Part shown: positions 36,517 to 49,428 of the stretch, one piece after another | Layout of the letters: the number at the start of each line of letters is the position of its first letter | How positions within the stretch are numbered: position 1 is the stretch's first letter | Origin: Prevotella sp. | GTDB taxonomy: Bacteria > Bacteroidota > Bacteroidia > Bacteroidales > Bacteroidaceae | Assembly (NCBI GenBank): GCA_017449495.1 | Contig: JAFTFO010000011.1 | Location: 1-49,428, forward strand | Reading direction: 5' to 3' | Length of the DNA stretch: 49,428 nt | Made by a program: the position numbers and the translations under genes | Notes under the pieces: model-generated | The model's input: the letters and a program-made list of their open reading frames with translations, nothing else | Databases searched by the model: none | Told to the model about the DNA's origin: nothing

Positions 36517-39164
36517 CTCTTACTGCGGGTAATCATCGTGCGTACCTTATTATTATATTTAGAGGCGGCAATGAGATCCTCTAAAGGTAAGTGCATACGA
36601 TACTTCCAGTGGTTGTATGGATCGCTGGGCACATTGATGCGCTCCTCACGAGGATGCTTACCACGAAGTTCCGTATCCATCGCCAGCCAGTCCTGCAACG
36701 AGAGGATGCAGAGCATTGACGGACAATAGAGATGTCGGGCGATGATCTCCTCGGCCAGATGGGCAGGCAGGTGCTCAGGGGCTCGGCCCTGCTTCTGAAG
36801 CATGGATACATAGTAGCGCTGCGAACGCTCTGGACTCTCCTCCCACCAAAGTCGTAGGGGTGACATGTCATGTGTGGAGATAGTGGCCACACTGCGATAA
36901 GGGTTACCACCCAGGTGGGTGAACTCGAAACCGCTCTGCTTCGGCATCGACTGAATCTCAAGCGTCAGGATGCGGAGGTGGTCGAGGACAGGCTGCACGC
37001 AGTCGGGCAACATGCCGAGATCCTCAGCACAGCAGAGCATGCGAGTATGGCCGAACACCTCTGAGAGGCGACGCATGGCCGTAGTACCCCAGAACATATT
37101 GTGACGCTGATAGAAGTAGTTGTTATATAACCGCATGTAAGCATCCTTCTCCTCGGCAGTAAGTGCCTCATAAACAGGATCCTGCCAGGCTCCGATACGT
37201 GGATGGTACATCTCCGGCTGGCGCGGGTCTTCGAGGAAGAGCACATTGCTGACCAGTCGATAGAGGCCATCACGAATCCACAAGCTGTTCTCATCACCCT
37301 TCCCTTCGAAAGCCTCACGTATCTTTTGCTGGGTATCGTACTCAGCCTTCAGGTCGTAGAGCCCGTAACTGCGGGGAATGAGGAAGTGTTCTCTGACGTA
37401 AGGAACATGGAGGCCGAAAAGTCGTTGAAGGACACGGTCATTAATGAACGGACGAGTAAACAAGTCCTTACGGAAGGGCAGCCCGAAGTACTCTATCTCA
37501 CCCTGCGTCATGGGCAACGCCGGGGAGAAATGGCCAAGCAGTCCGAAGATGGCATCAGCAGGGATCTCCCATATACGGAAGAAGCCCAGCACGTGGTCGA
37601 TACGGATGGCATCGAAATATTGCTCCATCCACGTCAACCGCTTCTGAAACCAATCGACAATCTCTTTGCTCTCCCAATTATAGGTGGGGAATCCCCAATT
37701 CTGCCCGTTTTGGGAGAAGGTATCAGGCGGTGCACCTGTAGAAGCGTCAAGGCAAAACATATCGGGATGAGATGCAGTCTCAACACTGTCACGGTTAACG
37801 CCGATAGGCACGTCACCCTTCAGAGCCACCCCATGCTGGCGGGCATAGTCGGCAGCACCTTTCAGTTGCAGGTGCAGATGATACTGAAGATAGGAGATGA
37901 AAGGTAAGACGTCAGAGACAGGCGCGTCAGCAGGAATGGTGAGAGAATGGTCTGCCTGCCACTTTGCATAGGGTTCCAGCCAGTCACGGTTTTGTTCAAA
38001 CCACTGCTTGAAGTCCTTACTGTCGAGTGTCTGCTGCCCTCGTTCCTCAAAGACAGCACGGACATAATCCATCTTCACCCGTTGCACCGCCTCATAGTCC
38101 GTATAGCTCAGGGCATTCAACTCTCCCTGCTGTCGCAGGAAAGCCGTCATACGTTTCTTGTCACGCAGCGGTCCAAGTGCCTGAAGGTCAAGATACTGAG
38201 GATGCAGGGCAAAGGCCGAGACGATATTATAAGGATAGGAGTCGCTCCAAGAACGTGCATAGGTTGTGTCATTGACGGGAAGGAGCTGGATGACTTTCAT
38301 CCCCGTAGCCACCGCCCAGTCTACCAACAGACGGAGATCGCCAAAGTCCCCCACCCCACAGGAATGACTGCTACGGAGTGAGAATACAGGGACACAGACA
38401 CCAGCAGCCCGCCAAGTGTCTTCCTTGACACGCAGGCTCTCGCCATAGACCACCAGCACCGTACCATCAGGGACAGCAGTCTGCTCAGGGGGAAGCATGC
38501 CCTCGATAGTGCGGTTGTCACCTTCCTCCCAGGCAACAAGGGCATGTGTGGCATCATCGACAATCACGTACTTGAACTCCAACGGCATCAGGATGGCATC
38601 AACATTCACCGACAGCAACCACTCACACAGTCCCATCGGCTCCATGCGAAGATACCGGGCGGGACTCCAACTGCCTAAAGCGGGATGGCTGCCTAAGATG
38701 GCAACGGACTGTCCCTGACGTAATTGTGGGGCAGAGACCCGGAAGATGATCGTCTTGCGATAGAGCGGCACTCGCTGGACATTGAGTGTGTCTTCAGATG
38801 ACAGCCCAGACGTCACCTGACATGCCTTACTGTAGAGGTGATACTGCAAGGGCACCTCCCGCCAGAGATCAGGCATGATATAGTTCTTCGTAGCATCGAA
38901 GAAGTAAGTCCGGGGTACGCCTGTCCACTCTCGTCTCAGTTCATGACCCTCGGCATCAGCCACATAATAATAATAGGTAATGGTCTCCACAGGATGTTGG
39001 CGCGACTCCACAGCCGACGTTTCCAGTTCCCAGTGCCATCCGTCATCCGTTGTCATAGGCAGACGACGCACCTTTTTCGTGGTGTCCTTACTCTGATAGG
39101 TGATAGCCACATAAAGGTTCTCACCCCACTGCGTACCGTATTGAATGGTAAATTTAAGCTTCAT
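36513..39164 (-). CDS. malQ: 4-alpha-glucanotransferase with N-terminal starch-binding domains
   Basis: An 883-aa GH77 enzyme, longer than E. coli MalQ because of two N-terminal CBM20-like modules (about residues 1-110 and 125-240; LYVAITYQSKDTTKKVRRLP, VAILGSHPALGSWSPARYLR). The catalytic core carries PIGVNRDSVETASHPDMF, the nucleophile region AIRIDHVLGFFRIWEIPAD, the acid/base region MLCCAEDLGMLPD and VATISTHDMSPLRLWW. It transfers glucan segments between alpha-1,4-glucans, like plant DPE2. No signal peptide, so it acts in the cytoplasm. Promoter at 39181-39189; the HAD phosphatase gene follows with overlapping codons. Confidence 0.93.
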   Translation of the reverse strand: MKLKFTIQYGTQWGENLYVAITYQSKDTTKKVRRLPMTTDDGWHWELETSAVESRQHPVETITYYYYVADAEGHELRREWTGVPRTYFFDATKNYIMPDLWREVPLQYHLYSKACQVTSGLSSEDTLNVQRVPLYRKTIIFRVSAPQLRQGQSVAILGSHPALGSWSPARYLRMEPMGLCEWLLSVNVDAILMPLEFKYVIVDDATHALVAWEEGDNRTIEGMLPPEQTAVPDGTVLVVYGESLRVKEDTWRAAGVCVPVFSLRSSHSCGVGDFGDLRLLVDWAVATGMKVIQLLPVNDTTYARSWSDSYPYNIVSAFALHPQYLDLQALGPLRDKKRMTAFLRQQGELNALSYTDYEAVQRVKMDYVRAVFEERGQQTLDSKDFKQWFEQNRDWLEPYAKWQADHSLTIPADAPVSDVLPFISYLQYHLHLQLKGAADYARQHGVALKGDVPIGVNRDSVETASHPDMFCLDASTGAPPDTFSQNGQNWGFPTYNWESKEIVDWFQKRLTWMEQYFDAIRIDHVLGFFRIWEIPADAIFGLLGHFSPALPMTQGEIEYFGLPFRKDLFTRPFINDRVLQRLFGLHVPYVREHFLIPRSYGLYDLKAEYDTQQKIREAFEGKGDENSLWIRDGLYRLVSNVLFLEDPRQPEMYHPRIGAWQDPVYEALTAEEKDAYMRLYNNYFYQRHNMFWGTTAMRRLSEVFGHTRMLCCAEDLGMLPDCVQPVLDHLRILTLEIQSMPKQSGFEFTHLGGNPYRSVATISTHDMSPLRLWWEESPERSQRYYVSMLQKQGRAPEHLPAHLAEEIIARHLYCPSMLCILSLQDWLAMDTELRGKHPREERINVPSDPYNHWKYRMHLPLEDLIAASKYNNKVRTMITRSKR

Positions 39165-39180
39165 AAATCACGATTTTAGT

Positions 39181-39189
39181 GCAAAGATA
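39181..39189 (-). promoter_or_regulatory. Promoter -7 box of malQ
   Basis: Minus-strand TATCTTTGC, 16 nt before the malQ ATG. Confidence 0.68.
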
Positions 39190-39192
39190 CAA

Positions 39193-39230
39193 AATAATTG
39201 ATAATTGACAATTGATAATTGATAATTATT
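39193..39230. repeat. Second copy of the AATTGATA tandem repeat
   Basis: AATTGATAATTGACAATTGA followed by TAATTGATAATTATT; the same units in slightly different order precede ribE at 35139-35177. Confidence 0.7.
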
Positions 39231-39289
39231 TCGTAATTTTGGAAGAAAAAGCAATCTTTCTTTATTTAAAGGCAGTTCGAGGGATTGAG

Positions 39290-39397
39290 AAAAAACAGGG
39301 TTACGAATAAGAGACCGTTCTCAATTCCACGTTCTGCATCAAATTGCTTTCAAAGAACTCCCGACTTTGAGCCATCAGCCTTTTAATGACTCATTGT
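39290..39397 (-). ncRNA. Candidate small RNA or leader upstream of malQ
   Basis: A full promoter (TTTG-N20-TACCTTTGC on the minus strand) predicts a start near 39397. The 5' end forms a hairpin from CCCGAC (39360-39365) and GTCGGG (39396-39401) with GAG/CTC inside. GTTCT/AGAAC pairing follows, and a T6 run on the minus strand lies at 39290-39295. Only tiny frames occur. It could instead be a distal leader of malQ, which has its own nearer promoter. Confidence 0.35.
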
Positions 39398-39402
39398 CGG
39401 GT

Positions 39403-39435
39403 GCAAAGGTATAACAATAATTTGAAAATACCAAA
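39403..39435 (-). promoter_or_regulatory. Full vegetative promoter without an annotated gene
   Basis: On the minus strand TTTG (complement of 39432-39435), a 20-nt spacer and TACCTTTGC (complement of 39403-39411) match the consensus exactly. Confidence 0.7.
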
Positions 39436-39457
39436 TTATTTGTTGGTTTTATGACAC

Positions 39458-39497
39458 AATAGTCGGCGCAATAGTCTCACGACTGTGCGCCACTATT
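39458..39497. repeat. Long near-perfect hairpin
   Basis: AATAGT-C-GGCGCA (39458-39470) pairs with TGCGCC-ACTATT (39486-39497), one bulge, and AGTC/GACT pairs inside the loop. It lies downstream of the ECF operon on the minus strand; no T run follows. Confidence 0.7.
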
Positions 39498-39560
39498 CTA
39501 ACATCATGCTTCAAAGCATGAAAAAAAGCAAGTTTCTTTTTTACGGCAACTCTATTTCGT

Positions 39561-40169
39561 CTAGTTTTCAAACTCTCGCAGCTCCTGCAAACCACTTTCT
39601 ATCTCCAACATCTGCTGGGCGTGGCGGCGACGCTGCCAAAGGCCTATCACGTAGGCCAAGGCAAAGGTGAGTAGTGTCATGCCGACTGTCAACAGGATTT
39701 TGGGGCCTACAACGTATGTTACAGCATCGTTGAAACAAAGTTCGGAGATATAGAATGCCACAAAGGTCAGGGCTACTAAAGCGATGCCCCATACGGACTC
39801 ATTGTGGCGTATCTGTTTATATCGGAGCACCAGACAACTCAGTTCTTTGCATTTCTTCTCCTCCAGGTTAAATTTGGAGAGTAGCGTGAGTTTCCAAATC
39901 TGAGGAATGAGGCCTATCACCATCGCTACTTCAACAATGACAAACGACATAGTAGATATAGGTGTATGCATGCAAATCCAGGGGAATAATCCGGCAATGA
40001 TGACGAATGTCACCACGAAGCTGTGTAGATTCTGGTTGAAGAGATGGTCAAAGGCCGTCTTGGTCTTCTGCGAAATCATCTCCTTTACGACGCGCAGGTT
40101 TACCACCTCGCTGTCGTCCAAGCGCTTATTTAGCACGTTCCAACTATTTTTCAATTCGTCAAGTTCCAT
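39561..40169 (-). CDS. Membrane protein of the ECF sigma operon, possible anti-sigma factor
   Basis: A 202-aa protein with a cytoplasmic N-terminal helix region (MELDELKNSWNVLNKRLDDS), then two pairs of transmembrane segments (about residues 50-68, 73-92, 126-144 and 155-174) and a charged C-terminus (QRRRHAQQMLEIESGLQELR). I recognise no named domain. It starts 13 nt after the ECF sigma stop codon. Membrane proteins in this position often hold the sigma factor at the membrane, so an anti-sigma role is an inference. Confidence 0.75.
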   Translation of the reverse strand: MELDELKNSWNVLNKRLDDSEVVNLRVVKEMISQKTKTAFDHLFNQNLHSFVVTFVIIAGLFPWICMHTPISTMSFVIVEVAMVIGLIPQIWKLTLLSKFNLEEKKCKELSCLVLRYKQIRHNESVWGIALVALTFVAFYISELCFNDAVTYVVGPKILLTVGMTLLTFALAYVIGLWQRRRHAQQMLEIESGLQELREFEN

Positions 40170-40182
40170 ATTATTTACGTTT

Positions 40183-40677
40183 TTAACTGTTTGACATTTG
40201 CTTTAATTTCTCTTTCGTGCGATTGAGTTTCACGGCGACATTGGCCTTCGATATGCCGAGGATGTCTGCCATCTCCTGGTAACTCCGCTCTTCCAGCCAG
40301 AGGAGGATCAGCGCACGTTCCAATTTCCCCAGTTGGTTGATGAGTCGGTAGAGTTCCTTCAACTGACCTGCACGACTCTCCTCTTCTGCCAACTGACTGG
40401 CCACGTCCAGCGTCAGCGGAATGGTCTGGGGCCTACTGTTCGAACGGCGCAGGAAGGTAATGCAGGTGTTCATCGCAATGCGATAGACCCAGGTTGAGAT
40501 TTTGCTGTCGCCCCGATAGCGGGGGAAACTCTTCCACAGGTTGAGCACCACCTCCTGGAACAGATCGTTCAGGACATCCTGGTCTTTGGCGTAGATGTAA
40601 CACACCTTGAATACGGTACGTTGCTGCGCCGCAATCATTTCCAGGAATTCTTTCTCCAGTGGATTCGTCTCCATCAC
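40183..40677 (-). CDS. ECF-family RNA polymerase sigma factor
   Basis: A 164-aa sigma-70 factor with only regions 2 and 4. Region 2 has VFKVCYIYAKDQDVLNDLFQ and KISTWVYRIAMNTCITFLRR; region 4 ends with the helix-turn-helix RSYQEMADILGISKANVAVK, LNRTKEKLKQ. Its ATG overlaps the stop of the 65-aa membrane protein upstream. The operon promoter (40915-40945) is nearly identical to the promoter of the TonB-type receptor gene (45197-45227) and unlike the vegetative consensus, so both are probably recognised by this factor. A membrane protein downstream is the candidate anti-sigma factor. Confidence 0.92.
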   Translation of the reverse strand: MMETNPLEKEFLEMIAAQQRTVFKVCYIYAKDQDVLNDLFQEVVLNLWKSFPRYRGDSKISTWVYRIAMNTCITFLRRSNSRPQTIPLTLDVASQLAEEESRAGQLKELYRLINQLGKLERALILLWLEERSYQEMADILGISKANVAVKLNRTKEKLKQMSNS

Positions 40678-40871
40678 TCCTTGCTCTTCTTTAGTGCGTT
40701 ATAGATGCAATCAACTCCAACAAGAATCAGAATAAACGGGGCTAAATAGGTTGCCCACGGTTCCTCAGCTGCTCTTTCGAGCCAGGTGATGTGGAAGAAG
40801 CCCCAGAGCGTTGCGAGTTTCAGAAGACTTGCCACTACCAAAATGATTCCGATAAATAGTCTTAGTTTCAT
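40674..40871 (-). CDS. 65-residue membrane protein at the head of the ECF operon
   Basis: Two transmembrane segments (about residues 4-26 and 42-58) with the short loop HITWLERAAEEPW and a basic tail (NALKKSKE). It overlaps the ECF sigma start by 4 nt (ATGA), so both are translationally coupled. It could be part of the signal path that controls the sigma factor, but there is no motif to support that directly. Confidence 0.78.
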   Translation of the reverse strand: MKLRLFIGIILVVASLLKLATLWGFFHITWLERAAEEPWATYLAPFILILVGVDCIYNALKKSKE

Positions 40872-40914
40872 AATTCCGATGTTTTAATTGTTCAACTTCT
40901 TTGTTTCTTTACCC

Positions 40915-40945
40915 TATTAGTCGCACGAACATCAGAATAATTACA
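40915..40945 (-). promoter_or_regulatory. Predicted ECF-dependent promoter of the ECF operon
   Basis: On the minus strand TGTAATT (complement of 40939-40945), a 15-nt spacer and CGACTAATA (complement of 40915-40923) form a -35/-10 pair unlike TTTG/TAnnTTTGC. About 38 bp around it match the promoter at 45197-45227 at 34 positions. It lies 43 nt before the 65-aa gene and implies autoregulation. Confidence 0.72.
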
Positions 40946-40961
40946 GAGAAACGAAAATAAA

Positions 40962-42077
40962 CTATATCCAAGTCAGTTTCCGCCAGAGACCTTCCAACGG
41001 ACCGCGCTGATGGCTGCTAAACCAATAGCGGCAAAAGGCGTATTGGGCAATCACCATCATCAGGCCGATAAGTACGGCGTAAGTAACGCCCACTTTATAA
41101 TAACAGCCCAGTCCGTAGCCGCAGAATATGAAACTGCCGATGATGGACTGCTGCAGATAGTTTGTCAGACTCATACGGCCAAAGATGCACAAATGATGGA
41201 GCACACGGCGAACACCCTCAAAGGCATACCAAGCCGAGACCGCAGCCGATACAATCATCAAGAGAATCACGAGATTGTAGATGGGCGAGAGCCACGTCGT
41301 GAGGTTGCCGAAATCGACGAAACTGAGGGTGATGACGACTATTGCCGATACGCATAGGATGGTGTGCCATATCTGCAGATTCCGCCCCTCTTTATAAAAC
41401 AATCGTTGCCTACCCAACTGCATACCGAGGATAAAGAGGCAGAGCAACTGAGTCAGGCGCCCACTAAACACGTTGAAGCGGAAGTTTAGTTCAAACCCAT
41501 ATCGCAGATTCACAAGCGTGTTCTCCCCAAACGTACCATGCTCATGTGCACTCACAATCTTGCCGTAGATGTCCCAGAGTGTAGAATGGTTCATCGTGGT
41601 GCCCGTCAGCAGGCAAAACAGTTCTACGGGCTGGATGGCCAACAGAGCGATGATATACCAGACGACTCGCGACGGCAGATAACTGATGGGGATGAGCAGC
41701 AGACCATAGACGGCATAGAGCATTAGGATGTCTCCATCGTAGAACGCCACATTGACGATGCCGAACATGAAAAGCAGACACATCCGCCAGGCGAAGCGAC
41801 CAGAGAAGCACTTGCCCTTCTGCTGCTGGTTGTCTTTCATGATGAAGAAACTCAGTCCGAAGAGCATGGCGAAGATGCCGTACATCTTGCCAGAGAGCAG
41901 CCAGGTCAGAAGGTCGGCCACCGTCTGATCTGATGGCAGTGTGTGGAGAATCGGCTCTTCCGTGAAGATGTTGAAGTGCTCTACAGAGTGATACAATATG
42001 ATACCAGCGACGGCGATACCTCTCAAAGCATCAGCCACGTCGATTCGGGTGTTGGGAAGGTTGCGGGTTTTATACAT
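40962..42077 (-). CDS. DUF418 family membrane protein (YeiB-like)
   Basis: A 371-aa polytopic protein with about nine or ten hydrophobic segments. The N-terminal RIDVADALRGIAVAGIILYH and C-terminal FGRMSLTNYLQQSIIGSFIF are typical of DUF418. The family is distantly related to membrane acyltransferases, and its function is unsettled. It starts 4 nt after the DUF3667 gene and is the last gene of the receptor-DUF3667-DUF418 unit. It ends just before the ECF operon promoter. Confidence 0.86.
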   Translation of the reverse strand: MYKTRNLPNTRIDVADALRGIAVAGIILYHSVEHFNIFTEEPILHTLPSDQTVADLLTWLLSGKMYGIFAMLFGLSFFIMKDNQQQKGKCFSGRFAWRMCLLFMFGIVNVAFYDGDILMLYAVYGLLLIPISYLPSRVVWYIIALLAIQPVELFCLLTGTTMNHSTLWDIYGKIVSAHEHGTFGENTLVNLRYGFELNFRFNVFSGRLTQLLCLFILGMQLGRQRLFYKEGRNLQIWHTILCVSAIVVITLSFVDFGNLTTWLSPIYNLVILLMIVSAAVSAWYAFEGVRRVLHHLCIFGRMSLTNYLQQSIIGSFIFCGYGLGCYYKVGVTYAVLIGLMMVIAQYAFCRYWFSSHQRGPLEGLWRKLTWI

Positions 42078-42081
42078 AAAT

Positions 42082-42978
42082 TTACGAATTTTTTACGAGA
42101 TGGACGTAAGCAAGGACAAGAGCGCCGATGACTATCACAGTAAAAAGGAAGATAAAGCCCGTCAGCACGATATACCACAGCAGCCGGCGCTTGGAGTAGC
42201 CCGTCAATTGTTTGAGGGCCACGAAAATCATGATGATAGAGAGCAACTTTAGAATGTCAGACAGGAGGCCAAAGGGCATTATGGCGGCCAGCATACGATA
42301 AATACTATACGTATTAGAGGTATAGACCAACGCCACCAGATGTTCGGAATATCTCAGGTCTGGTATGGCCGGACTCCGACGGAAAAAGATGTATAGCGGA
42401 GCAGATATCAGCACGAGGATGGCAAAGGAGAACAGTGAAGGATTCTTCTTTTCGAGGGCAGTGATTGTCTTTGGAATCTTCTGTACGAATCGCATGGTCT
42501 TGACGTCTCTCTCGTCACCTTCTATTTTCCAGTTATCCGCTGCCTCCTCTTTTGCGGGTAAAGTCTGTTCCTCAAAGTCAAGACTGATGCCGTGTGAAAA
42601 CAAGAATGAGAAGGTTGCCAGGATGAAGAACATCTTAAACGGTGGGAAATATGCCGACTGACATCCGCCGATATAGTCGCGAATCATGTAGCCCGGCCTC
42701 AGCAGCAGGTCACGGATGGTGCGGAACATGCCGCGATTGCCAATGCCCCAGATATCGAGAAACAGAAAGAAGGCGGTCTTAATCGAGAACCGCCCAACAC
42801 GAGCCGACTGTCCGCAACGAGGACAGAAATTGCCCTGAAACTCCGTGCTGCACGACTGGCACGTGTGTGTCATGTCTGACTGCGGAGCCACCTTGTGCGG
42901 TGTCTGCTGCCAGATGCTGAAGGCCCGCTTCTTCACAGCCCAACTCCTTTTGTCTCTCAATAATGCCATCATTGCCAT
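42082..42978 (-). CDS. DUF3667 family zinc-ribbon membrane protein
   Basis: A 298-aa protein. A zinc ribbon near residues 39-57 (CQSCSTEFQGNFCPRCGQ) is followed by KTAFFLFLDIWGIGNRGMFR and the conserved TIRDLLLRPGYMIRDYIGG, then four or five transmembrane segments. This is the DUF3667 pattern; its function is unknown. The start at 42978 or the internal Met at 42873 are both possible; the latter would begin right before the zinc ribbon. A weak -7-like box (AATCTTTGC) is at 42992-43000, but the receptor gene is only 37 bp upstream and co-transcription is likely. Confidence 0.85.
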   Translation of the reverse strand: MAMMALLRDKRSWAVKKRAFSIWQQTPHKVAPQSDMTHTCQSCSTEFQGNFCPRCGQSARVGRFSIKTAFFLFLDIWGIGNRGMFRTIRDLLLRPGYMIRDYIGGCQSAYFPPFKMFFILATFSFLFSHGISLDFEEQTLPAKEEAADNWKIEGDERDVKTMRFVQKIPKTITALEKKNPSLFSFAILVLISAPLYIFFRRSPAIPDLRYSEHLVALVYTSNTYSIYRMLAAIMPFGLLSDILKLLSIIMIFVALKQLTGYSKRRLLWYIVLTGFIFLFTVIVIGALVLAYVHLVKNS

Positions 42979-43015
42979 TTTCTTTGATAGTGCAAAGATT
43001 CAAAAAAAATTTTAC

Positions 43016-45166
43016 TTATGATCCCATTCTTGCCTGTGTTTCCTTACCAGCTCCAGTGCCTTTATACTTGCTGCGGGTGGCATTCAGGCGATAGTTGAGC
43101 GATAGCATCAACTTATGGGTTGAAAAGCGGTTGTTCTGCTGAATCTGGTTAAAGCCGTAATCTGAAAACTCGTTCATGCGGTTGCGCTGCAGACAGTCGA
43201 GTACCGCAGCACGCAGGGTGAGCGAATTGTCACGGAGCAAGCTCTTCTGCGCTACAAGGCCTAGGCGCAGATTATAGGTGTTGTTATAGAACACATACGT
43301 ACACCCGCTCGAACGGTACATCAAATTGACATCGAACCGCCAGCCATGCTTCAGCGTAAACGTATTAAAGGCATTAAGCGTATATTTTGGCTTGTCGTAA
43401 TAAACACGATAAATGCCCTGAGGGCCTTCAACATCGAGATACAGGTCTTGTTTTTCTACACCAGCAGTTGCATTGAGCGACCAGAAACCAATACGAGGTG
43501 TTACGGCGAGATAGGCACTCAATGTGTTGATGGGCTTATCGAGATTGATGTGTTTACAGAGCGAAGCGCCTGTTGATGTAGGGAAATTCCATTGGGTGAT
43601 GGGATTCGACAGATGCTCGTAAGAAGCCGTAAGGGTAACCCACTTGTAGGATGCGTTAAAGGTGAGATCGCGAACGCGTTCATTCAGCAACTGAGCACTA
43701 CCAGCCTGCTGCATATAGCGGCTGATATAGGTTATGGCATCGTTCATGGCGAAGAAGCTGGGGCGGTAGGTCTTCATGCTGTACGACAGAGCCGTCTGAA
43801 CCTTACCCAATGTCACAGAATAGGCAGCAGTAGGGAACCACTCGTCCATTGAGCGGTGATGCCGTTTGTCTTTATCCATTATATCATCGTAATCCATAAG
43901 GGTATGCTCATATCGCAAACCCACAGATGCACTGCCATACTTCTTGAAGTCACAACAATATTCGGCAAAGGCAGCGACGTTGTTCTCTGTTACATCGGCA
44001 TCACTATTGGCAATCGCCTCCTTTTCGATCCAATAGGTGTTGTTGCGATTGACGAAGGTCATCTCTGTACCAGCCTCTACCTCGCCCTTCCATACGGGAT
44101 AAGAGAGCACCAGCTTTGTGGCATAGAGACGACTCCTGGTGCCCGACTTACTGAGCACATAGTCATCCTGAACCTGACTCCGCTCTACATTTTCCCTATC
44201 AGTATCTGTTCCGTTCCTCATGAAATCGAAGTTGAAATCAATGCCCAACTTGCCCACCTTACCATTATAATAGGTATTGATAAGCCAACCCAGCGGTTTC
44301 GACTCCTTGCTGGTTTGATGAGAATAGAGATGATCCGTCAATACATCATTCGTAAAGACATCCTCATCGTATATCACCTGATTGGTGCCACTCTTAGGAC
44401 GATGTGTCAAGTCGGCTCGCACACCCAGCGAGTGATTGTCCGACAACTGCCAATTTACACCAGTCGTATAGGTCAGGCTATTGTATTTCCACGTCATCGT
44501 ATAGGGACCATACTGACGGAATACCTTATCTTCTGTTTTCATAATCTCTTCGAGTGTGCTGTACTGCCGATAATCCTGGTGGAAAGCATAAACGGAAGCA
44601 AACACATCGACACCATTCTTGCGATAATTGACATCGAAAGTGCCTTGTGGACGATCAAAATCGTAGCGCAGGTCGTGCTCATCGGCCAATGTCAGTCCAA
44701 GACCGAGCCCCTCTCCCTGCTGCTTACGAGTGCGGATTCTAACCACAGCCCTCACTTGGGCGTCATATTTTGCACCGGGGTTATTGATTACCTCCACATC
44801 GCGGATATCCTCGCTGCGCAGTCGTTTCAACTCGTTACCGTCGCGCATCAGTCTGCCGTTGATGTATATAAGCGGTGTCCCTTTGCCCAATACCTCAGGT
44901 GCTTCGTCAGTACCCGTCATGCCAGGAACCTTCACCAGCAACTCGCCGAGTGTGCCAGAACCAGCCAGTGGTGTCCCCTGAATCCGGGTAATCATCGCGT
45001 TGCCCTTCAGACGGGTATTGGGGAGGTTGCCCTTCACGACAACCTCCCTCAACTCCAACAACTTGTTTACAGATTCTATGGAGTCCTGCGGCTCCTGTGC
45101 ATTAGCCGTTAACGCCATCATCATCACAGCCATCACGGCTGTCATCCTAAAAACAATCTTCTTCAT
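43016..45166 (-). CDS. TonB-dependent receptor-like outer-membrane barrel protein
   Basis: A 716-aa protein with signal peptide MKKIVFRMTAVMAVMMMALT. A plug-like domain follows at about residues 35-150 (LREVVVKGNLPNTRLKGNAM, TLGELLVKVPGM, PLIYINGRLM, IRDVEVINNPGAKYDA), then a barrel of the OMP_b-brl_3 type. The usual N-terminal carboxypeptidase-like domain is missing, so the plug starts right after the signal peptide. The substrate is unknown. It is expressed from a promoter almost identical to that of the ECF operon (45197-45227) and is followed by the DUF3667 and DUF418 genes on the same strand. Confidence 0.88.
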   Translation of the reverse strand: MKKIVFRMTAVMAVMMMALTANAQEPQDSIESVNKLLELREVVVKGNLPNTRLKGNAMITRIQGTPLAGSGTLGELLVKVPGMTGTDEAPEVLGKGTPLIYINGRLMRDGNELKRLRSEDIRDVEVINNPGAKYDAQVRAVVRIRTRKQQGEGLGLGLTLADEHDLRYDFDRPQGTFDVNYRKNGVDVFASVYAFHQDYRQYSTLEEIMKTEDKVFRQYGPYTMTWKYNSLTYTTGVNWQLSDNHSLGVRADLTHRPKSGTNQVIYDEDVFTNDVLTDHLYSHQTSKESKPLGWLINTYYNGKVGKLGIDFNFDFMRNGTDTDRENVERSQVQDDYVLSKSGTRSRLYATKLVLSYPVWKGEVEAGTEMTFVNRNNTYWIEKEAIANSDADVTENNVAAFAEYCCDFKKYGSASVGLRYEHTLMDYDDIMDKDKRHHRSMDEWFPTAAYSVTLGKVQTALSYSMKTYRPSFFAMNDAITYISRYMQQAGSAQLLNERVRDLTFNASYKWVTLTASYEHLSNPITQWNFPTSTGASLCKHINLDKPINTLSAYLAVTPRIGFWSLNATAGVEKQDLYLDVEGPQGIYRVYYDKPKYTLNAFNTFTLKHGWRFDVNLMYRSSGCTYVFYNNTYNLRLGLVAQKSLLRDNSLTLRAAVLDCLQRNRMNEFSDYGFNQIQQNNRFSTHKLMLSLNYRLNATRSKYKGTGAGKETQARMGS

Positions 45167-45196
45167 AACTCTAACTGTTTTAATGTCTCTTTACCC

Positions 45197-45227
45197 TATT
45201 AGTCGCAAGAATATCAGGAAAATTACA
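45197..45227 (-). promoter_or_regulatory. Predicted ECF-dependent promoter of the receptor operon
   Basis: On the minus strand TGTAATT (complement of 45221-45227), 15 nt and CGACTAATA (complement of 45197-45205), 31 nt before the receptor ATG. It is the twin of the promoter at 40915-40945, including the identical CTTTACCCTATTAGTCGCA on the plus strand. The -35 element overlaps the stop codon of the upstream hydrolase gene. Confidence 0.72.
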
Positions 45228-47040
45228 AATGGCTCAAATATTCCATGATTCCTTTGCGATATAACTCTGAGGGATTTTTGATATCAATCACAGAGAGGCG
45301 GTCATAAATCTGGCAGAACGTCTCCACGTCGGCCTCGCTGAAGTTGCGGTAATCCTCTGTCCCTTGGCCAGCAATCTTGCAATTATACCAGCAGGCAAGG
45401 CTCTCGAAAGCACTCCAGGGCACGAAGGTCAAATCCTTCTCGCTATTCAAGCTTCGGGTGTATGCCTTCATCTCTTCCATGATGGGGCTGATGCTGTCCA
45501 TCATTAGGAAAATGCCGAACTCATGGCTGAACATCGCCAACTGATAGTCTATCGACTGATTGTAGTAGACGGTATTGGTGTTCTCGTTCAGGTTGTTGTA
45601 AGATGGGCCTTTCTCCCCTGCCCGATACAGCAGCCAGTGGTAGTCGCCGTGCGTCCAAGTATATCCCGTCACGCGTTCCCAATCCCTGACGAATGAGTTT
45701 TCTTTCAACCGCTGAGTCAATTCCTTCTGACGATTCTCCATATCCTTCTTCACCTGCGGATAGACCTGTGCCAGATAGTTGTCGTAGTTATCGACATACA
45801 CTTTGGCGATGGCGTGAACAGCATTCATGACATCCTCAGAGGCTTTCGCATTTTCGCCTTCGGCGATGATGGCGTTCATTCCTAATTGCAAGGAATCTGC
45901 ATTGGCAAACGACTCTCTCGATACGCCAAAGAAGAATGGCCCGGCCAGCATACCACCCTCGCCTTGCCCAAACACCAGGTATTCCTTGTACTTTTGTAAG
46001 GTGTCAACAGCAGCCTTGGGTAGCGTGTTTCCATACTTCGCAGTATATTCCTCGTCAGTAAATCCTAATCCTGCCAGCGTATAAAGGTGAGTCACGTAAT
46101 TCACCTCAGGACGGATCTCGAAGAGAATCTTTGCTTCCTTGTTATGACTCATAGCACTAGCAATGAATGTCTGGAGTTTCTTGTTGAACATCTCAGACTG
46201 TTCCATGTGGACGAAATGACCGCAACTGGTCAGTTCCGTATAGTCGAGGTTAGGATACAGACATCGCATCTTCTGCTTGTTGTCAGGATCAAGTCCGCTA
46301 TTCTGTGTACAGATGACCATTACAGGCTGAGTTATAGGAAAATGTGACCACCACTTCTTGTCTATCAGATTTCGCATCGTGCTCGATGCCACGTACTGGG
46401 GCGTTTTGGGCATCACCGACATAGCATAGTCCGTAACCTCCTGTGGGGTTTCTTTTCCAGCCAATGATGACACAAAACCCGTTATGACATCGCGACAATC
46501 AGGACCATCGAAAGCATGGCCAAACCGATTGACTGCCTCTACATATTCTGGTGTTTCCGTGCCGTCGTAGAAGCAATAAACACCATCCACATCAATTAAG
46601 GCACCTTTATGTCCAGTCATCATCAGCACCTGGCGACAAACAGGCGTGCCAAGACTATGACCTACAAAGACCGCATCCTTGATGTCGTTTTCATTCAGCA
46701 CTTCATCAATGGCTTGGGCAAAGAAGTCGAGCGTATATTCCACGTGTGGTTTGTCACTCTGTCCATAGCCGGGCAGGTCGATGAACACGAGTTGCAGGCC
46801 TTCGTCATCATGGAAAGTCTCAAACTGTTTCACCCAGGTATTCATATCACAGCCAAAGCCGTGAACAAAACAGATGGTCTTCACATCAGGATTAGTCGTC
46901 TTATTCCATATTTTATAATGAACACGTATACTATCATCAATAGTAACATATTCAGACTTCACTTCTCTAAGCGCCTGCGGCTGGCTGCTACAGCCTACCA
47001 GCAGTAATGCGAATACAAAATATAATATTGCTCTTTTCAT
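45223..47040 (-). CDS. Lipoprotein alpha/beta hydrolase fused to a 300-residue C-terminal domain
   Basis: A 605-aa protein. The lipobox LLVGC puts the lipidated Cys at residue 17. The hydrolase domain (about 30-300) has oxyanion motif VHGFGCDMNTW, nucleophile elbow GHSLG (Ser129), FIDLPGYGQSD and the catalytic His in CGHFVHMEQ. Residues about 305-605 form a second, mostly helical domain (EAKILFEIRPEVNYVTHLYT, WTHGDYHWLLYRAGEKGPSY, FSHEFGIFLMMDS) that I do not recognise. The start at 47040 overlaps the upstream stop codon (ATGA) and follows an internal promoter (47062-47070). The substrate is unknown; the location is envelope. Confidence 0.82.
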   Translation of the reverse strand: MKRAILYFVFALLLVGCSSQPQALREVKSEYVTIDDSIRVHYKIWNKTTNPDVKTICFVHGFGCDMNTWVKQFETFHDDEGLQLVFIDLPGYGQSDKPHVEYTLDFFAQAIDEVLNENDIKDAVFVGHSLGTPVCRQVLMMTGHKGALIDVDGVYCFYDGTETPEYVEAVNRFGHAFDGPDCRDVITGFVSSLAGKETPQEVTDYAMSVMPKTPQYVASSTMRNLIDKKWWSHFPITQPVMVICTQNSGLDPDNKQKMRCLYPNLDYTELTSCGHFVHMEQSEMFNKKLQTFIASAMSHNKEAKILFEIRPEVNYVTHLYTLAGLGFTDEEYTAKYGNTLPKAAVDTLQKYKEYLVFGQGEGGMLAGPFFFGVSRESFANADSLQLGMNAIIAEGENAKASEDVMNAVHAIAKVYVDNYDNYLAQVYPQVKKDMENRQKELTQRLKENSFVRDWERVTGYTWTHGDYHWLLYRAGEKGPSYNNLNENTNTVYYNQSIDYQLAMFSHEFGIFLMMDSISPIMEEMKAYTRSLNSEKDLTFVPWSAFESLACWYNCKIAGQGTEDYRNFSEADVETFCQIYDRLSVIDIKNPSELYRKGIMEYLSHL

Positions 47041-47600
47041 TTCACTTTTATGTTTGACGGTGCAAAGGTACGGATAGTAGCTTTCAGTTTCCCATTCAGA
47101 ATTCTGTTCCTGACGCATTTCACAGCGGGCTTGTAATAGTCTGTCTCCATCGCTTCGAGCGTGCGTTCCAGTTCGTCCATCAGTTCAGGATAGAATTTGC
47201 ACATGCGGAAGGCGAGTTTCATGCAGACTGACTGAATGCCAGGGAACTCTTCTACATCCATCATGTGCTCGAAGCAGAAATCAAGAAAGTCGGTCCGCAA
47301 GTCTTCTTCCTTCATATCCAGTTGCTCGATGATGTTCAGCGTCAATCGCCTGACGGATGAGTTATCTGTAGTCATAGCCTGCTCAATAAGTTCATTGAGT
47401 ATCACTTGCAATTGCGACAGCTCCTCTGTGCTGGCTTTGGTCAGTCCCCACAAGGCACTTCTTGCCACCCGATAATCCTCACCGAACGCATACTGACGGG
47501 CAAAGCCAAGGAAATCACCAATTGCCTTTACCTCCTGGTAAATCTCCTGTGCACCACCTTCGCTGAATGTCTGTTTTAGTCTATCTTCTGTTATTACCAT
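47037..47600 (-). CDS. Helical (HEAT-like) protein of unknown function
   Basis: A 187-aa protein made almost entirely of amphipathic helices: VARSALWGLTKASTEELSQL, LNELIEQAMTTDNSSVRRLT, LNIIEQLDMKEEDLRTDFLD and ELMDELERTLEAM. The spacing resembles HEAT or DNA-alkylation-repair-type helical repeats, but no family motif is certain. It overlaps the GNAT gene by 7 nt and the hydrolase gene by 4 nt, so the three are translated together. Confidence 0.75.
   Translation of the reverse strand: MVITEDRLKQTFSEGGAQEIYQEVKAIGDFLGFARQYAFGEDYRVARSALWGLTKASTEELSQLQVILNELIEQAMTTDNSSVRRLTLNIIEQLDMKEEDLRTDFLDFCFEHMMDVEEFPGIQSVCMKLAFRMCKFYPELMDELERTLEAMETDYYKPAVKCVRNRILNGKLKATIRTFAPSNIKVK
47062..47070 (-). promoter_or_regulatory. 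Internal promoter -7 box before the hydrolase gene
   Basis: Minus-strand TACCTTTGC inside the last codons of the helical protein gene, 21 nt before the hydrolase ATG. It would allow the hydrolase to be expressed separately from the operon. Confidence 0.6.
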
Positions 47601-48112
47601 TCTAATCTTAATACCCTTATTGGCCTGTCCTTGCCTCCATAGAGAGTTTCGTCAAAACACTCTTCGCCTGTAGGGAAAAAGCCACATTTCTCCATCACAC
47701 GGCCAGAGGCAGGATTATCGACGAAGTGACCGCAGCAGAGCGACGGGATGTCTGTTGTTTTGCGAATATGGTCAAGCATCAGTTGCAATGCCTCTGTGCA
47801 ATAGCCATTATTCCAATAAGGCTTTGCCACCCAATAACCAACAATAGGCTCTCCCTCGCGGATAGGCAACTTACAGTCGCATGACGCGCCATACCCCATA
47901 GCACCAATAACCTCATTCGTTTCTTTGAGAACGATGGCCCAAGTGGTGGTGTCTCGATTGAACACGTTACGAATTATCTCCAGACTTTCCTCCACCGACT
48001 TGTGTGGTGGCCAGCCAGCGCGAGGGCCAACCTCTGGATCACTTGCGTATTTAAACAACACCTTGGCATCACTATCCAGCCAAGGACGTAATAGTATTCT
48101 TTCAGTTTTCAT
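47594..48112 (-). CDS. GNAT acetyltransferase, RimJ/RimL-like
   Basis: A 172-aa acyl-CoA-dependent acetyltransferase. It has the RimJ/L start TERILLRPWLDSDAKVLFKY, the central VIGAMGYGAS strand, and the YWVAKPYWNNGYCTEALQLM segment in place of the acetyl-CoA pyrophosphate loop. CGHFVDNPASGRVMEKCGFF is the C-terminal motif. The acceptor may be a protein N-terminus or a small amine. It overlaps both neighbours (4 nt with the Ntn-type hydrolase, 7 nt with the helical protein). Confidence 0.87.
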   Translation of the reverse strand: MKTERILLRPWLDSDAKVLFKYASDPEVGPRAGWPPHKSVEESLEIIRNVFNRDTTTWAIVLKETNEVIGAMGYGASCDCKLPIREGEPIVGYWVAKPYWNNGYCTEALQLMLDHIRKTTDIPSLCCGHFVDNPASGRVMEKCGFFPTGEECFDETLYGGKDRPIRVLRLEW

Positions 48113-49191
48113 TCTTTGTTTTCTTTATCTTTAAGCTCAAAACGGAATGGCTTGTCGAAATGCCTTCGTGAGTAATACGTAACAGAAGGATGCGTCAAGT
48201 CCATAACCATCGTCCAAAGGGTACCACCGACGACTGCGCCTTTCCCTGGAAGTTGAGTAACAGAAGCGATGGCATCAGTCAGTTCTTTCTCGTTCATCAC
48301 GCCGCCAGTCTTTTCGTATTGCTCCATGAGCTTCTCGTGGCGATGATCACCCTCATTCAATCCCACCAGAAACTTCTCCTCACAAAGGTAGTGGTTCGTA
48401 ACGAAAGGCGACTCCGTCACCACCATTTTGTTGTCCACATATTCCACAGCAACGCTTCTGCCCGATGCGTCGGCCATCGAATAGTGATAGGCCGAACCAG
48501 GGTCGGAGTTCATGTCGATGCTACGAAGTAGCTCCAAGGCCTCGTCAACGTTGGCTGCATTCTTCAGTAGGTATTGCGTAGCCGAGGTGGTGGCGAGGTC
48601 GGGTTTGGAAGTATTCTGACTGGTTACCACTTTGTCTCCTGCATCAAGCACGGCAATAGCAAAGCCCTTCTCATTGATACCGTCAAGAGCAAGGAACAGT
48701 CCAGCCAACGCCATGTATTGGTTCTTGAAACCTTCGGGCTTGTAATCTTCGCCGAAGCCGTAGAAATCGGTGGAGAAGGTGGTAATGGATTCGTAGCCCT
48801 CATCGGGTGTGACATGCATAATCATGGCTGTACCGTATGGATAATCGAAGTTGCGGGCCATCATCACGCCCCCTTCTGGCGTTCTGACAGTTAGCGTAGA
48901 ACAGCCTACAGGCATGACCGGGCAGTCAATCTTGGCCGTCTTGAAATATCCCTTTGACAGGAATTCGACCGTGTAATCGGCCATTTCCTTGATGCCTTTA
49001 CTGCCACCACGTGCCATCAATTCTTTGAATCCGTCGTCGCCCTTGTACTCCATGTAGTACATGCCGTCGTCCAATTTCTCAGCCGACAGGGTTCCCTGAA
49101 TGATGGCCCCAAACTGAATCCACGTCAACAAGCCTGCGACTACAATAAGTCCCAGCATGCTCAACAGTGTAATCTTTATCCACTTCTTCAT
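48109..49191 (-). CDS. Membrane-anchored Ntn-type linear amide (C45/choloylglycine-like) hydrolase
   Basis: A 360-aa protein with an N-terminal transmembrane anchor (about residues 6-27). The hydrolase domain has Cys in MPVGCSTLTVRTPEGGVMMA (about residue 89) followed by RNFDYPYGTA, the core of cysteine Ntn amide hydrolases such as penicillin acylase or bile-salt hydrolase relatives. Other marks are LDGINEKGFAIAVLDAGD and VAVEYVDNKMVV. These enzymes cleave linear amides; the Cys is not near the N-terminus, so processing or a non-autocatalytic variant must be assumed. The frame also opens at 49242 with an ATGA overlap to the upstream gene; MKKWIKITLL at 49191 looks more like an anchor start. 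Confidence 0.82.
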   Translation of the reverse strand: MKKWIKITLLSMLGLIVVAGLLTWIQFGAIIQGTLSAEKLDDGMYYMEYKGDDGFKELMARGGSKGIKEMADYTVEFLSKGYFKTAKIDCPVMPVGCSTLTVRTPEGGVMMARNFDYPYGTAMIMHVTPDEGYESITTFSTDFYGFGEDYKPEGFKNQYMALAGLFLALDGINEKGFAIAVLDAGDKVVTSQNTSKPDLATTSATQYLLKNAANVDEALELLRSIDMNSDPGSAYHYSMADASGRSVAVEYVDNKMVVTESPFVTNHYLCEEKFLVGLNEGDHRHEKLMEQYEKTGGVMNEKELTDAIASVTQLPGKGAVVGGTLWTMVMDLTHPSVTYYSRRHFDKPFRFELKDKENKE

Positions 49192-49238
49192 AATTACCAC
49201 ATTTTTGAATATAAATATGACGCAGAAATTTTCCAACC

Positions 49239-49428
49239 TCATTCTGGCTTAGCCCAGAAGAAATCGGGATCGGTGGTGGTGTCGCATTTCCAGTTGTCGT
49301 TCACGAATCCTGCGGGAATGAGGCGGATGTCATCCTCAGGAGGATTGTTGCGATAGACGCTCTCAGGGTTGAAGCGGCTGATCTTCTTGCAGACGAAATA
49401 GTAGAGGTTCTTCGCCATATATTCGTCC
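49239..49428 (-). CDS. 3' end of an unidentified gene, truncated by the window edge
   Basis: The last 62 codons on the minus strand include YMAKNLYYFVCKKISRFNPE, DDIRLIPAGFVNDNWKCDTT and DPDFFWAKPE before a TGA at 49239-49241. The frame is open to the window edge. The stop overlaps the ATG at 49242 (ATGA), the same pattern as between the other genes of this operon. I do not recognise the family. Confidence 0.65.
   Translation of the reverse strand, partial: DEYMAKNLYYFVCKKISRFNPESVYRNNPPEDDIRLIPAGFVNDNWKCDTTTDPDFFWAKPE

Follow-up and report, generated by a model that had tools for sequence, protein, structure and literature searches.

What ties an alternative sigma factor to the outer-membrane receptor operon encoded next to it? 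The question is raised by a 49,428-nucleotide (nt) stretch of Prevotella sp. DNA (GenBank assembly GCA_017449495.1, contig JAFTFO010000011.1, positions 1-49,428), which is called the window below and corresponds to contig C19 of the genome analysed. On its minus strand, an operon for an extracytoplasmic function (ECF) sigma factor follows an operon for a TonB-type receptor, and each begins behind a copy of the same sequence. A single ECF sigma subfamily very likely uses both copies as promoters: P2, which stands before the sigma operon, would drive that operon, and P1, before the receptor operon, would drive the receptor-DUF3667-DUF418 genes. A small membrane protein encoded behind the sigma gene probably restrains the sigma factor.

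Two copies of one promoter-like sequence

The first-pass annotation had drawn attention to two minus-strand sites, alike at about 34 of 38 positions and sharing TGTAATT-N15-CGACTAATA, and had placed one before each operon. The likeness was confirmed: 40902-40945 and 45184-45227 form the longest direct repeat of 38500-49428, identical at 39 of 44 nt (89%), and both copies carry the motif without a mismatch. In the candidate ECF promoter P2 (40915-40945, minus strand), TGTAATT occupies 40939-40945 and CGACTAATA 40915-40923, 43 nt upstream of the first gene of the sigma operon. In its counterpart P1 (45197-45227, minus strand) the same elements fall at 45221-45227 and 45197-45205, 30 nt upstream of the receptor gene. 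The gene order on the minus strand runs hydrolase, P1, receptor (OMP_b-brl_3 family), DUF3667, DUF418, P2, a 65-residue protein, sigma factor and a 202-residue partner. No third site with up to three mismatches occurs anywhere in the window, and at that tolerance 100 shuffles of the window gave a mean of 0.27 matches, with two matches reached in 3 of the 100. This anatomy points to promoter activity of P1 and P2. The first-pass annotation also held that such similarity in intergenic sequence was hard to explain by chance. The genome-wide counts given below bear out that chance is not the explanation. P1 does not lie wholly between genes, however: its -35 box TGTAATT contains the TAA stop codon (45223-45225) of the hydrolase gene.

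The motif follows the sigma gene across genera

Is the motif a property of this sigma factor or of this locus? A check proposed at the outset, that it should recur beside orthologous ECF genes, came out in favor of the former. Among the best 80 named loci, 79 had 130 nt of upstream DNA and were scored (L132 was dropped), a site being counted when at least 13 of 16 positions matched around an N15 spacer within 130 nt of the sigma match. Sites were present at all 10 loci with a sigma factor at least 70% identical, at 10 of 13 with 50-69% identity, 11 of 18 with 45-49%, 4 of 17 with 40-44% and 3 of 21 below 40%, against 5 of 839 other open reading frames of the same loci. When spacers of 12-18 nt were allowed, 38 of 39 such sites had 15 nt and one had 16. 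Among the 10 closest loci listed, nine have the end of the site 20-25 nt upstream of the sigma match, and one has it 99 nt upstream. Carriers include Parabacteroides gordonii, Dysgonomonas and Massilibacteroides, and several Bacteroides have TGTGATT as the first element. In 14 related genomes searched with at most one mismatch, 12 of 16 sites lay upstream of a sigma gene, which in one case (Massilibacteroides) belongs to a second sigma/partner pair. The motif is thus very probably the promoter through which this ECF subfamily regulates itself, and conservation across several genera supports the autoregulation that had been proposed from the window.

Within the genus, exact sites occur in 10 of 120 genomes including the one analysed here, and in none of the control. 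The other nine (of 119) hold 11 exact sites, at most two per genome. Nine of these stand directly before the sigma start, one precedes a receptor-sigma-partner cluster (genome G063) and one lies at a contig end. Judged by these matches, the set of five sites described next is confined to the genome of the window, and elsewhere autoregulation is the main clear case.

Additional sigma/partner pairs were seen in some relatives. In Massilibacteroides vaginae a second pair lies 22 kb from the first and has its own TGTGATT-N15-CGACTAATA (L168, 1501-1531). More distant pairs, with sigma factors about 41-43% identical, are found at L228 2860-4330, L061 9278-10377 and L156 6990-8157; they lie near the main system or a LiaF-receptor pair, and no exact site was present in the upstream DNA inspected.

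Five exact sites in one genome

The genome of the window (2.24 Mb) contains five exact sites with spacers of 14-17 nt allowed, all with 15 nt, against none in a reversed control and a chance expectation of about 0.0075 at an assumed 46% G+C. Beside P1 and P2, the site on contig C9 precedes a second sigma/partner pair (BLAST identity to the window's proteins 89% for the sigma factor and 87% for the partner). That on C10 precedes a gene for a LiaF-like protein, which carries a LiaF-like_C domain (PF09922, 40.1 bits, above the cut-off of 29) and is followed by a 731-residue OMP_b-brl_3 barrel. The fifth, on C15, precedes a 105-residue BamE-domain protein with a lipoprotein-like signal as judged by eye. 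Relaxed matching was tried as a route to a wider regulon and rejected: with up to three mismatches there were 13 sites and 20 in the reversed control, so claims are restricted to exact sites.

How did the motif come to stand before such different genes? The P2, P1 and C15 sites agree at 11-13 of 15 spacer positions and at 12-13 of the 13 bases that follow the motif, as against 6-11 of 30 upstream. The downstream block, GGGTAAAGAAACA, lies directly past the -10 box (40902-40914, minus strand, at P2). The C9 and C10 sites share less with these three than the three do among themselves. Since spacer and leader are common and upstream DNA is not, the comparison suggests that, in this lineage, new genes acquired copies of one promoter-plus-leader segment upstream. 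The three sites concerned lie at 40902-40945 and 45184-45227 of the window and at L070 7835-7880.

A further motif, TGTAGTT..CGTCTAAT, was noticed at L012 1501-1531 (minus strand; same genome, three mismatches) and just before 6990 in L156, at a second sigma pair. The two sites are alike and may represent a sister ECF promoter type.

The sigma factor and its membrane partners

The sigma factor (40183-40674, minus strand; 163 residues from the ATG at 40674) has the architecture of an ECF protein, with regions 2 and 4 only (PF04542, 54.5 bits; PF08281, 43 bits; TIGR02937, 95.3 bits against a cut-off of 42.9); a family profile search returned no match to region 3. Its ATG overlaps the stop codon of the preceding gene, which encodes the 65-residue membrane protein (40674-40871, minus strand). 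This protein is LiaI/LiaF-TM-like by a weak match (PF18917, 19.7 bits, under the cut-off of 27) and resembles the N-terminal membrane part of a LiaF-like protein; its homologues stand directly after the partner gene in six loci. The partner itself (39561-40169, minus strand; 202 residues) is all helical in the predicted structure, with four long helices. Both fit the earlier description of two small membrane partners.

In 50 of 54 rows of sigma loci, two loci occurring twice, the sigma gene is followed within 100 nt by a gene of the partner family. Of 29 invariant partner residues, 12 are in the first 35 positions and 7 in the last 20, and these conserved ends may be cytoplasmic and bind the sigma factor. 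Gene order, the structural model and this pattern together suggest that the partner is probably an anti-sigma factor. Partner matches were found in 11 of 100 genus genomes, 10 of them strong, so most members of the genus lack the system.

Receptors linked to the sigma gene

The receptor of the window (43016-45166, minus strand; 716 residues) is an OMP_b-brl_3 outer-membrane barrel of the TonB-receptor kind and the first gene past P1. Barrels of this family gave 328 matches in 51.9 Mb from 12 genomes, all of them chosen as holders of the sigma gene. Eight of 52 distinct sigma loci have a same-strand receptor no more than 1.5 kb away, where 0.49 would be expected (Poisson p 5.6e-8; the 1.5-kb limit was set post hoc, the two repeated loci were dropped, and the near-copies L076 and L077 were counted as one hit).

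A receptor tree of 51 rows, to which 39 of 40 stretches fetched for it contributed (L195 gave none) and which holds part of each genome's receptors, groups many of these proteins, although the program flagged long branches. Eight of the 11 linked receptors, those next to the sigma gene or behind the motif, fall in one clade of nine (support 100/100), to which the LiaF-linked barrel on C10 belongs. The 11 do not form a single clade: five label changes are needed, against a shuffled mean of 10.2, and none of 500 shuffles was as low. The window's receptor sits in the sister clade beside a 75% identical receptor of G063, the closest found, encoded behind a LiaF-like gene; the L088 and L107 receptors fall elsewhere. 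Linkage of receptors to the sigma gene is thus supported in general, and the receptor operon behind P1 is a probable target of the sigma factor, the window's receptor being supported as a target in its own genome only. Receptor genes in L084, L232, L234 and L235 are preceded by sites TGTAATTTTG-N-AGCGTC..CRACAAATA (14-15 of 16 positions), which were first read as ECF sites and then set aside: the first half of each is TAATTTTG, the sigma-ABfr -7 box of another, LytTR-type promoter, so the resemblance may be chance.

A possible second layer of LytTR-type boxes

That second promoter type has a box, CATTCGTCAC-N8-GCAGAATATCCCAG, which precedes LiaF, receptor and BamE-like genes in the genome of the window and in relatives (for example L070 7758-7789 and 8227-8258, L071 3032-3063 on the minus strand, and many others). 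The sigma-ABfr -7 box, TAnnTTTG, lies exactly 27 nt past the box in 44 of 47 distinct boxes (up to three mismatches), 26 nt past it in one, and is absent in two. In L228, L229 and L234 a membrane LytTR gene and the LiaF-like gene are divergent, and PF04397 was confirmed in all four LytTR genes tested. Neighboring genes and spacing together suggest that the box is of the LytTR type. Boxes occur in 33 of 100 genus genomes and in none of the control: in 8 of the 10 with a strong partner match versus 25 of the 90 others (p 0.002); the sigma pair is thus missing from most genomes that have boxes.

The genome of the window has only three boxes at up to three mismatches. Two lie just upstream of the ECF sites of the LiaF and BamE-like genes, and the third precedes a transglutaminase-like gene; P1 and P2 have none. 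In this incomplete genome, the search for LytTR proteins returned two partial matches, both weak (E 6e-5 and 4e-4), and no clear LytTR gene. Elements of a LytTR regulatory system were thus seen outside the window, as LytTR-LiaF pairs in relatives and as boxes on contigs C10 and C15. With two of the five ECF sites directly behind LytTR-type/sigma-ABfr promoters, the arrangement suggests dual control at these two sites. A two-layer envelope-stress circuit can be sketched from this, tentatively and at somewhat short of even odds: a membrane LytTR/LiaF system would drive LiaF, barrel and lipoprotein-like genes via sigma-ABfr promoters, a self-regulating ECF sigma factor and its four-helix membrane partner would be layered on the same genes by tandem promoters, and the regulon would have grown by promoter-plus-leader copying.

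The proposed circuit and its rivals

In the circuit favored here, the polytopic 202-residue partner in the inner membrane would most likely keep the sigma factor inactive until a disturbance of the envelope released it; that the signal comes from the envelope is suggested by gene content. Free sigma factor would then fire P2, raising the 65-residue LiaI-like protein, itself and its partner, P1 with the receptor operon upstream, and the sites before the second sigma/partner pair on C9, the LiaF-like and barrel genes on C10 and the BamE-like gene on C15. Because P2 begins only 16 nt past the DUF418 stop codon, transcription from P1 would probably feed the sigma gene too. All the genes are in tandem and no terminator-like site was found between the end of the DUF418 gene and P2, so P1 transcripts probably continue into the sigma operon.

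Several observations weigh against this circuit. The genome is 68% complete, and its two sigma paralogues, about 88% identical, share the motif, so either may be the one that uses P1. No partner is present at L094, L106, L110 and L111 (4 of the 54 rows), the partner has no Pfam or NCBIfam family match at E 0.001, and its structural model is a moderate one (pLDDT 72). Searching the 14 related genomes with up to two mismatches gave 64 sites and 66 in the control, which speaks against a wide regulon as a general feature. The G063 orthologue of the window's receptor has no motif, which qualifies the claim that the receptor operon is a target, made in the first-pass annotation and otherwise upheld by the motif and by receptor adjacency.

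Could P1 be an idle copy? If only P2 worked, P1 would be a recently copied cassette of no regulatory role and the receptor operon would be read from the hydrolase promoter. The shared spacer and 13 downstream bases at P1, P2 and C15 beside dissimilar upstream DNA look like a copied segment, and both the bare G063 orthologue and the overlap of P1 with the hydrolase stop codon would fit. P1, however, is intact at 16 of 16 positions, and OMP_b-brl_3 receptors are linked to the sigma gene in several genomes, one of them (G094/G144) with its own one-mismatch site, which makes an idle P1 unlikely. The receptor might instead be a sensor as well as a target, signaling to the sigma factor as in FecA-type surface signaling. 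ECF circuits with TonB receptors are common, and the linkage of receptor and sigma gene does recall FecI-FecR-FecA. Unlike that system, this one has a partner with no FecR-like match, and Pfam scans of whole receptors, the window's and six more, gave no STN domain; a sensory role is quite improbable. Nor need the sigma factor be the reader at all: a motif does not by itself show what reads it, two of the five sites have LytTR-type boxes next to them, and the sigma operon might merely be among the targets of a different regulator. Yet the nearly fixed spacer and the distance of 20-25 nt to the sigma gene in nine of ten close relatives are promoter anatomy, motif conservation drops with sigma identity, and the LytTR-type box, which has a -7 box of its own, is a distinct element. 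A foreign reader is very unlikely on these grounds, and a promoter pair served by the sigma factor itself is the better account.

Relation to known systems

EcfO-Reo and Das-Dma of Bacteroides and Phocaeicola pair an ECF sigma factor with a membrane anti-sigma factor and are thought to answer outer-membrane stress (PMC9308784, PMC13114119, PMC13088901). The system described here is likewise a Bacteroidota ECF sigma factor with a membrane partner, predicted to be an anti-sigma factor. Reo and Dma are single proteins that reach from the cytoplasm to their own outer-membrane barrel, whereas here the partner is no barrel-bearing anti-sigma factor but a 202-residue protein with an all-helical model, and the large barrel is a separate gene. 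The second layer resembles LytTR regulatory systems, including the LRS-like operons of Bacteroides with DUF2154, in that relatives pair a membrane LytTR protein with a LiaF-like protein and have a box at a fixed distance from the promoter (PMC6193735). Those systems, as described there, have no sigma factor, whereas here an ECF-type promoter lies behind a LytTR-type promoter at two genes (PMC6193735). The 65-residue protein and the LiaF-like_C domain on C10 are reminiscent of the LiaI/LiaF envelope-stress proteins of Firmicutes.

Neighboring genes

Past the receptor gene lie the DUF3667 gene (42082-42978) and the DUF418 (YeiB-like) gene (40962-42077), both on the minus strand and named from family matches. 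In G092 a DUF418 homologue, 79% identical, stands directly upstream of motif, sigma factor and partner. Upstream of P1, the alpha/beta hydrolase gene (45223-47118, minus strand) may give rise to read-through into the receptor operon, and a homologue 64% identical lies within a LiaF-OMP cluster of G144. Genes of this hydrolase type recurrently adjoin sigma/partner genes (L066 4487-5476, L063 7190-8620, L061 10466-11200 and window 45223-47118); one in G142 lies behind an exact motif, and the L061 gene is a weak BLAST match only. No Rfam family matched in 39200-47200. Counts of sigma-70 consensus sites (16 versus 11.3 in shuffles, standard deviation 3.5) and terminator-like sites (6 versus 6.6, standard deviation 2.2) were uninformative.

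Significance

To our knowledge, promoter recognition and signals are not established for most Bacteroidota ECF sigma factors. According to a 2020 paper, none of the alternative ECF factors of B. thetaiotaomicron had a known motif at that time (PMC7366714). Titles, abstract openings and passages of the literature consulted describe no combination of sigma factor, partner, LiaF and receptor and no overlap of ECF and LytTR control; the type of circuit is known, but the set of parts and the overlap with another regulator seem to be undescribed. The presence of LiaF and barrel genes with a LytTR-type box points to a function in envelope maintenance. Because the motif can be traced with the sigma factor from Prevotella to Parabacteroides, Dysgonomonas and Bacteroides, it offers a testable regulon for an apparently uncharacterized subfamily.

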